Shown here: piece after piece, positions 14,267-39,426 of the stretch
Numbering within the stretch: position 1 is the first letter of the stretch
Layout of the letters: each line of letters begins with the position of its first letter
Assembly (NCBI GenBank): GCA_015067835.1
Contig: SVLS01000002.1
Span: 1 to 64,000 of the forward strand
Source of the DNA: Oscillospiraceae bacterium
GTDB taxonomy: Bacteria > Bacillota > Clostridia > Oscillospirales > Oscillospiraceae
Reading direction: 5' to 3'
Length of the DNA: 64,000 nt
Position numbers and translations under genes: made by a program
The notes under the pieces: generated by a model
Database searches by the model: none
Seen by the model: the letters and a program-made list of their open reading frames with translations, nothing else
What the model was told of the DNA's origin: nothing

Positions 14267-14287
14267 GGCAATATAGCAGAAGTAAAA

Positions 14288-14400
14288 GGCCCCCTTGTGT
14301 AAAGGGGGCTGGCAAAAATCTGTGATTTTTGACTGGGGGATTGTCACAACCCCTCCGTCACGGTATGCACCGTGACACCTCCCCTTACACAGGGGAGGCT
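14288..14400. repeat. Family B short element (gene-less)
   Basis: GGCCCCCTTGTGTAAAGGGGGC...GGGGGATTGT/ACAACCCCTCCG...CCTTACACAGGGGAGGC. Confidence 0.9.
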
Positions 14401-14459
14401 TTCGGGACGGATGACGAACCAACTTTTAAAATGTTCAAAAATAATTCAAAATCAACCCC

Positions 14460-17963: not shown

Positions 17964-18009
17964 ATCATGCAATAAGGGGCGGACGAACCGCCCCTTGTTG
18001 GTGTATAAA

Positions 18010-18107
18010 GCCTCCCTTGTGCAAAGGGAGGTGGCCGAGCGTTAGCGAGGACGGAGGGATTGATAATCCCCCACCGCTACGCGGAGCCCCCTTTACACAA
18101 GGGGGCC
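18010..18107. repeat. Family B short element between dnaK and dnaJ
   Basis: GCCTCCCTTGTGCAAAGGGAGGTGGCCGAGC...CCTTTACACAAGGGGGCC. Confidence 0.9.
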
Positions 18108-18125
18108 TTTAATTGAGGTGAATTT

Positions 18126-24903: not shown

Positions 24904-25212
24904 TGTCATTGCGAGGAGCGAAGCGACGTGGCAATCTCCCGGTACGTAGTTTGTTCCTGCAATACATATCGTCAGATGTTCCCAGGAGATTCCCACGGCC
25001 CGTTGGGCCTCGGAATGACATGCTATATCGTAAAATGTCCCATTTATGTCATTGCGAGGAGCGAAGCGACGTGGCAATTCCCCCACCACGTCATTGCGAG
25101 GAGGGCATAAGCCCGACGTGGCAATCTCCTGGCACCATCTACCGACACATTTCGCAGCAACAAACTACGTACCGGGAGATTCCCACGGTCGCTACGCTCC
25201 CTCGGAATGACA
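24904..25212. repeat. Family A cluster
   Basis: Two complete units plus a half-unit. Confidence 0.9.
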
Positions 25213-25235
25213 TACAAATAAATACATCAAGCAAA

Positions 25236-25343
25236 GCCCTCCCCTTTGGGGAGGGTGGCCGAGCGCCAGCGAGATCGGGGGAGGTACGCCTCTTCCGTCA
25301 TTTGCTCGTCCCTCGCAAATGCCACCTTCCCCAGAGGGGAAGG
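25236..25343. repeat. Family B short element
   Basis: GCCCTCCCCTTTGGGGAGGGTGGCCGAGCGCC...CTTCCCCAGAGGGGAAGGC. Confidence 0.85.
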
Positions 25344-36076: not shown

Positions 36077-36488
36077 TGTCATTGCGAGGAGCATCGACAG
36101 ATGCGACGTGGCAATCTCCCGGGGAAAACCGATTCTTAACCACGTGTTATTTCGTTGTATAAATCCACCCAACGAGGATTTTTATCCATAATTAAAGAAG
36201 TTTTGCGTTCTCTTTTCCAACTTTTAATTTGCTTTTCCCGCTCTAATGCTGCTTTTACATCTGAAGTTTCTTCAAAATAGACAAGTTTTGTTACATTATA
36301 TTTTGCAGTAAAACTATTTTTGTCCAAATGATTTTTGTGCTCATATATTCGTCGCAATAAATCACTTGTTACACCGGTATACAGCACTGTACAGTGCTTA
36401 TTTGCCAGAATATATACATAGTATTTCATTTCTTTTATCCTACATAATACCGGGAGATTGCCACGTCGCTTACGCTCCTCGCAATGAC
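36077..36488 (-). mobile_element. Putative family-A long element carrying GIY-YIG gene
   Basis: Inverted family-A halves (36077-36120 and 36450-36488) flank the gene in place of the usual core. Confidence 0.7.
36136..36429 (-). CDS. GIY-YIG nuclease-superfamily protein (97 aa) inside a family-A repeat
   Basis: MKYYVYILANKHCTVLYTGVTSDLLRRIYEHK; the ORF-track extension upstream of MKYY is translated repeat sequence. Confidence 0.92.
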   Translation of the reverse strand: MKYYVYILANKHCTVLYTGVTSDLLRRIYEHKNHLDKNSFTAKYNVTKLVYFEETSDVKAALEREKQIKSWKRERKTSLIMDKNPRWVDLYNEITRG

Positions 36489-38944: not shown

Positions 38945-38959
38945 TTATTTGTCCCCAAA

Positions 38960-39419
38960 GGCTCCCTTGTGTAAAGGGAGCTGTCAAAAATCTTCTGATT
39001 TTTGACTGAGGGATTGTCTTACTTTAAGATCGATATACGCACAAACTCCCTGAAAATTTTTAAATATCTCATTATTTGGTATCCGAATAATGCTTAATCC
39101 GTAACCTTCCAAAAAAGCTGTACGAATGGAATCTCTTTCAATGTTTGCATCATCAAAGTGCTGAGAACCATCTAATTCAATGACAATTTTTGCTTCTGCG
39201 CAGTAAAAATCCACAATATACCTTCCAAGAACTTTCTGCCTTGAAAAACGAATCGGATAATTACGCAGAAAATCATACCATAAATGGCGTTCTTCTTTTG
39301 TCATTTTCTCACGCAGCTGCTTCGCAAAAGGGACTAATTGCTTATTGTGTTTAGACTGCATCACAATCCCTCCGTCCGGAATCAAAGATTCCGGCCACCT
39401 CCCTTTACACAAGGGAGGC
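38960..39419 (-). mobile_element. Putative family-B long element carrying DUF559 gene
   Basis: Inverted family-B halves (38960-39017 and 39363-39419) directly bracket the gene. Confidence 0.75.
38984..39361 (-). CDS. DUF559 (Vsr-like PD-(D/E)XK superfamily) endonuclease-domain protein inside a family-B repeat
   Basis: FAKQLREKMTKEERHLWYDFLRNYPIRFSRQKVLGRYIVDFYCAEAKIVIELDGSQH. Confidence 0.92.
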   Translation of the reverse strand: MQSKHNKQLVPFAKQLREKMTKEERHLWYDFLRNYPIRFSRQKVLGRYIVDFYCAEAKIVIELDGSQHFDDANIERDSIRTAFLEGYGLSIIRIPNNEIFKNFQGVCAYIDLKVRQSLSQKSEDF

Positions 39420-39426
39420 TTTTTTG

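Follow-up and report, generated by a model that had tools for sequence, protein, structure and literature searches.

Two kinds of intergenic repeats come closest to the element analyzed here. In RAYT-REP/REPIN systems, one gene encoding an IS200/IS605-like Y1 (HUH) transposase, present in low copy number, lies between two inverted palindromic repeats, often of two different types and carrying a GT(A/G)G head, while many gene-free inverted doublets with a short hinge are also found (PMC2817692, PMC3116915). BoxC/PIT/intrastrand triplex motifs (TM), known since the 1990s, consist of a pyrimidine strand, a complementary purine strand and a purine third strand that mirrors it; they are intergenic and widespread, and their loci are hypervariable and unstable, but the paper describing them, whose finder allowed loops of 1–6 nt, reported no mobility gene near its motifs and offers no dissemination enzyme (PMC4666352). 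More generally, the literature searched reports no mobility gene for triplex repeats, and among the papers searched we found none linking DUF559 to inverted repeats or GIY-YIG nucleases to REP sequences. Here, we examine a gene of the DUF559 family, small bacterial proteins of unknown function, that sits exactly between two mirror-type repeats of an Oscillospiraceae bacterium. The DNA analyzed, referred to as the window, is a stretch of 64,000 nucleotides (GCA_015067835.1, contig SVLS01000002.1, positions 1 to 64,000).

Architecture of the DUF559 locus

A preliminary description of this locus, made from the sequence alone, had proposed that the terminal repeats supply both the ribosome-binding site and the stop codon of the DUF559 gene, and our analysis confirms this observation. 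The gene, which lies between recF and gyrB, is preceded on the minus strand by ...GGACGGAGGGATTGTG immediately before the ATG; the left arm ends with GGAGGGATTGT, followed by a single G and the initiation codon, so that the GGAGGG motif is located 6 nt from the ATG. At the other end, the reading frame terminates with RQSLSQKSEDF and a TGA codon lying inside the right arm. Since in-frame GTG and TTG codons are also present, the ATG is the likely but unproven start. The two arms are inverted with respect to each other and are 84% and 82% complementary in two blocks. The encoded protein matches PF04480 with a score of 100.9 bits, well above the cut-off of 20.6. A search of the window for RNA families returned only a tRNA, the arms reaching the threshold of no described RNA family.

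Table 1. Coordinates of the features discussed in the text (window numbering, unless a contig of the same genome is indicated)
Position	Strand	Feature	Details
38984..39361	-	DUF559 (PD-(D/E)XK, Vsr-like) endonuclease gene, in the hinge between the two arms	125 aa; PF04480 E=4.5e-29
39359..39361	-	ATG	
39364	-	in-frame GTG	
39412	-	in-frame TTG	
39363..39422	-	left (G-type) arm	hairpin 1 CCTCCCTT..AAGGGAGG, hairpin 2 (variable), third strand GGAGGGA, then TTGT
38957..39017	+	right (C-type) arm	hairpin 1 GCTCCCTT..AAGGGAGC, hairpin 2 (AAAAATCTTCTGATTTTT), third strand TGAGGGA, then TTGT; overlaps the last 34 nt of the gene
39368..39373	-	GGAGGG	Shine-Dalgarno of the gene and part of the purine third strand of the left arm
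38984..38986	-	TGA stop codon	inside hairpin 2 of the right arm, abutting hairpin 1
14285..14402	+	gene-free pair of the same family	C-type arm, hinge of a few nt, G-type arm
18007..18111	+	gene-free pair between dnaK and dnaJ	G-type arm and C-type-like arm
25195..25342		pair of triplex-type motifs of different sequence, head to head	CCCTCCCC.. and CTTCCCC..
36136..36429	-	GIY-YIG nuclease gene	between inverted GTCATTGCGAG...GGCAATCTCC repeats
contig C5, 21697..21990		Y1_Tnp (RAYT-like) gene (locus L283)	flanked and interrupted by a third repeat family
contig C21, 563		Y1_Tnp gene	

Conservation of the gene–arm interlock

The arrangement is not due to chance. Within the window, the hairpin pattern gives five matches, against none in 100 shuffles. 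We then collected homologues from 300 genomes of the family and from named genomes. When each upstream flank was aligned with its own downstream flank, the average score was 18.4, compared to 12.2 against the flanks of other elements and 7.3 after shuffling. Across the 56 homologues with long flanks, 57% display strong arm-to-arm inverted matches, whereas only 0.3% of 336 windows shifted along the same loci do so.

The preliminary description had proposed to check whether DUF559 homologues in other genomes share the C-terminal tail and the start context, homologues with the same flanks that start and stop at unrelated positions relative to the repeat counting against it. Of 35 homologues bearing this repeat type (the B arms) on both sides, 28 start 0–3 nt after the repeat tag and end at hairpin 1; the seven others (loci L023, L090, L094, L104, L105, L137 and L149) start and/or stop elsewhere relative to the repeat, so that the condition set for rejecting the proposal is fulfilled only in part. 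Likewise, of 35 homologues with a QSLSQ tail, 31 have a GGAGG motif 7–8 nt from the start, all stop with TGA, and in 33 the stop abuts hairpin 1 exactly. The arrangement is conserved over many genera at 55–76% protein identity.

The interpretation given in the preliminary description is only partly supported. It held that the reading frame and its terminal repeats are interlocked, suggesting co-evolution as one unit, and this is borne out, as the gene and its arms travel together. It also held that the interlock, with its ribosome-binding site, explains the conservation of GGAGGGATTGT, and this is not supported: the same tag is kept in gene-free arms, with for instance 34 GAGGGATTGT among the C-type arms and 28 GAGGGRTTGT among the G-type arms of four genomes, and the C-type arm, which never serves as a ribosome-binding site, keeps it too. 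Similarly, the QSLSQ tail is not kept as protein. Its codons barely vary at synonymous sites (CAA 35/35, TCC 35/35, CTC 34/35 and AGT 35/35), whereas invariant residues in the body of the protein use several synonymous codons. The tail is therefore kept as repeat DNA.

Mirror covariation within the arms

Comparison of 162 distinct arms shows what constrains the tag. Each variable base of the purine strand of hairpin 1 reappears in mirror order in the tag, with 112 A/A and 50 G/G and no mixed case at the inner position, 146 A/A, 8 G/G and 3 mixed cases at the outer position, and G with G (77) or C with T (83) at the flanking position; altogether, 154 of the 162 arms match in mirror order at both variable positions. 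Because related arms are not independent, the p-values of this comparison are descriptive. The two arms of one element can differ (GGGG tag in one, GGGA in the other), so each tag follows its own hairpin. Mirror symmetry is not Watson–Crick pairing but is the pattern expected of the third strand of a purine-motif intrastrand triplex; a structural constraint thus explains the tag better, the ribosome-binding site being a secondary use of a purine-rich strand. Triplex formation is nevertheless inferred from covariation, and in vivo footprinting of BoxC motifs did not support stable triplexes (PMC4666352). Between hairpin 1 and the third strand lies a second loop of about 15–25 nt containing its own, freely varying hairpin (168 distinct segments, mean folding z of -3.1). 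A direct scan of the window for pyrimidine–purine–mirror motifs gave 17 raw hits, against none in ten block shuffles.

Gene-free pairs and distribution of the arms

Arms of the same family also occur without the gene, both in the window (Table 1) and on contig C5 of the same genome, as well as in related genomes. They form inverted pairs of one G-type and one C-type arm in 17 of 18 gene-free pairs, the same combination as that found around the gene in 30 of 34 cases, where the gene always runs from the G-type to the C-type arm. The hinges are short and often shared within a genome. All 13 genomes with a close DUF559 gene carry arms, against 49 of 287 others. Genome G001 of the family has 60 B arms. 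This association is partly due to shared ancestry: a within-genus permutation gives p=0.13 with strict labels, and 0.03 and 0.005 only after one genome with a truncated DUF559 gene was relabeled post hoc. Furthermore, some genomes have many arms but no DUF559 gene was found in them (genomes G097, G107 and G153, with 32, 12 and 11 arms, respectively), although most of these are incomplete assemblies and relics may persist. In G097, which is 88% complete, many C-type arms (loci L215–L224) are paired with a different partner arm (CCTCCCCTTGG..) across a similar hinge.

The recF–gyrB gap itself is a hotspot. None of 29 congeners carries the present element there; they carry instead different repeat families, GIY-YIG genes, another DUF559 gene (locus L054) or almost nothing (loci L046–L075), the gap being too diverged to define a base-exact empty site. 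The GIY-YIG gene lies between inverted GTCATTGCGAG...GGCAATCTCC repeats in the window and, in the recF–gyrB gap, in five congeners (loci L051, L055, L058, L059 and L061; one frameshifted), which constitutes a second nuclease–repeat pairing. As the Y1_Tnp gene of contig C5 is flanked and even interrupted by yet another family (TAGGGAACGACCTGTGTGTCGTTCCCTA; TAGGGAACGACCTGTGTGTCGTTCCCTACGG), three repeat families are each linked to a different nuclease in one genome.

DUF559 genes and triplex motifs in other phyla

DUF559 genes from Deinococcus, Sinorhizobium, Sphingomonas, Sphingobium and Pseudanabaena lie between strongly inverted (near-perfect) arms of unrelated sequence, which often overlap the stop codon. 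The scan for triplex motifs detected one beside 82 of 92 DUF559 genes in the Clostridia set (57 of 60 family-B genes and 25 of 32 others) and 17 of 21 loci on plasmid-collection records, against 13 of 338 shifted windows, 2 of 40 far-side windows and none of 92 shuffles, so that such motifs flank DUF559 genes in Bacillota, Deinococcota, Cyanobacteriota and Pseudomonadota. Note that the cross-phylum sample comes from plasmid-collection records, some of them chromosome-sized, that some DUF559 genes have arms on one side only, and that neither a Neisseria DUF559 gene (locus L254) nor most of the remote DUF559-domain proteins of the phylum-wide search have detectable arms. In Escherichia coli, including K-12, the stop of the DUF559 gene ycjD (sapF–ycjD–fabI; loci L260 and L289) lies in a degenerate BoxC-like repeat, with a full BoxC-type triplex motif downstream; this region matches at 80% coverage or more in 3361 of 5426 genomes.

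Two inter-species empty sites show that the gene plus its arms is an insertion, one between paaD and paaZ in Deinococcus (Deinococcus sp. QL22) and one at a gene junction in Sinorhizobium/Shinella. No clear target-site duplication, as left by a MITE or insertion sequence, was seen at these two junctions, which are too diverged to exclude one. A clean strain-level empty site was not found: the Sinorhizobium meliloti locus was absent from the plasmids searched, and the E. coli strains without ycjD that we viewed have an efflux operon at this position. DUF559 genes also sit inside operons (loci L256, L258, L268 and L269), between paaD and paaZ in Deinococcus and beside sufB/sufC, NAD(P) transhydrogenase and yqeY/dnaG genes on Sphingomonas plasmids.

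Predicted fold of the DUF559 protein

The DUF559 protein is under purifying selection, with a median dN/dS of 0.07 in its clade. Its structural model (pLDDT 88) matches Neisseria NGO0050 (PDB code: 3hrl; Z 14.9), the closest solved DUF559 structure (E=3.8e-19), as well as the homing endonuclease I-Bth0305I (Z 12.4) and Vsr (Z 10.5), and the alignments show that D51, E62, D64 and H68 of the predicted active-site region are conserved. Searches with PADLOC, NCBIfam and PHROGs gave only weak matches, to restriction, homing and HNH nucleases, and no defence assignment.

Discussion

We favor, with moderate confidence, the view that the locus is a small composite unit of the mobile type, a RAYT/REPIN-like selfish unit composed of two inverted, structured arms and a Vsr-fold endonuclease gene in their hinge. 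In this view, each arm is a potential intrastrand DNA triplex, the third strand of the G-type arm doubles as the ribosome-binding site and the second hairpin of the C-type arm supplies the stop, so that the gene would need nothing from the insertion site except transcription, and the gene-free pairs would be the non-autonomous copies. The architecture, the interlock, the covariation, the association across phyla, the two empty sites, the purifying selection and the predicted fold are established by our analysis. By contrast, we only infer that the protein is an active nuclease, that the arms fold as triplexes, that DUF559 recognizes the folded arms, probably when single-stranded at replication forks, that it nicks or cuts them, and that repair of the breaks copies arm pairs to new intergenic sites and homogenizes them; the only traces of movement are the inter-species empty sites.

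Other explanations seem less likely. DUF559 could be an ordinary host gene caught between repeats that spread by another route, as such repeats are common in the intergenic DNA of these genomes, but this is difficult to reconcile with the exact interlock at both ends, the constant direction of the gene, the near absence of inverted arms in shifted windows and the recurrence of the association with unrelated repeat sequences in other phyla. Mobilization of the arms by a RAYT, with DUF559 as a passenger, is equally unlikely: although the genome has Y1_Tnp genes and paired inverted repeats are the REPIN layout (PMC3116915), no B arm was found within the flanks examined of any of eight Y1_Tnp loci, the Y1_Tnp gene of contig C5 is associated with its own repeat family, and Y1_Tnp was not found in 9 of 21 genomes searched, including the arm-rich genomes G294 (33 arms, 95% complete) and G216 (25 arms, 96% complete). 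That the arms mainly act on the mRNA, setting the translation and stability of a conserved nuclease gene, is the least likely possibility; the Shine-Dalgarno and the stop do lie in structured RNA, but the same arms are conserved in gene-free pairs, which, as the pooled arms indicate, keep the same mirror covariation, even though purine-motif triplexes do not form in RNA (PMC4666352).

A somewhat less improbable, though still doubtful, alternative is that DUF559 is a domesticated repair, defence or homing-type nuclease that acts at triplex- or hairpin-induced lesions and is kept near the repeats because it limits their instability or homes into them, without dispersing them. The Vsr and I-Bth0305I folds, the low dN/dS, the hypervariability of BoxC/TM loci in E. 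coli (PMC4666352) and the presence of a DUF559 domain in Caulobacter VsrA, which is linked to DNA damage (PMC12907096), are consistent with this idea. However, it explains neither why gene-free miniature pairs have the same two-type end structure as the gene-bearing unit nor the precise insertions seen against empty sites.

Taken together, the recurrent pairing of this family with such repeats in very distant bacteria suggests that the enzyme is the missing partner of a widespread, unexplained class of genome repeats, giving the repeats a candidate enzyme and the enzyme a candidate substrate. A broader and more tentative reading, possible but less likely than not, is that DUF559 is the general mobility (or maintenance) enzyme of intrastrand-triplex repeats across bacteria, i.e. 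of a class of selfish elements whose ends are DNA triplexes and whose enzyme is a Vsr/homing-type nuclease. A parallel class would use GIY-YIG nucleases with GTCATTGCGAG repeats, so that nuclease-linked palindromic repeats would have arisen several times besides RAYT/REP.

Compared to homing endonucleases with the Vsr fold (I-Bth0305I) and to Vsr, the DUF559 protein shares the predicted fold and the conserved D / ExDG..H region, but no intron or intein is involved and the gene lies in repeat pairs in intergenic DNA; Neisseria NGO0050 is the closest solved structure, yet the Neisseria DUF559 gene examined lacks detectable arms. The arms resemble BoxC/PIT/TM motifs in the order of their pyrimidine, purine and mirror purine strands and in being intergenic, widespread, hypervariable loci, and the Sinorhizobium and E. 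coli copies near DUF559 look like the BoxC motif; they differ in that the second loop exceeds the 1–6 nt of the published search and holds a variable hairpin, and in that a nuclease gene is linked to the motif. Finally, the layout is that of RAYT-flanking REPs and REPINs, with one enzyme gene between two inverted repeats of two types, many gene-free inverted doublets with a short hinge and a low enzyme copy number, but the enzyme is a predicted Vsr-fold nuclease instead of a HUH transposase, the arms have a hairpin with a mirror third strand and end in GAGGGRTTGT instead of bearing a GTAG-type head, and the start and stop lie inside or against the arms, so that the element would work like a RAYT/REPIN pair without being one.
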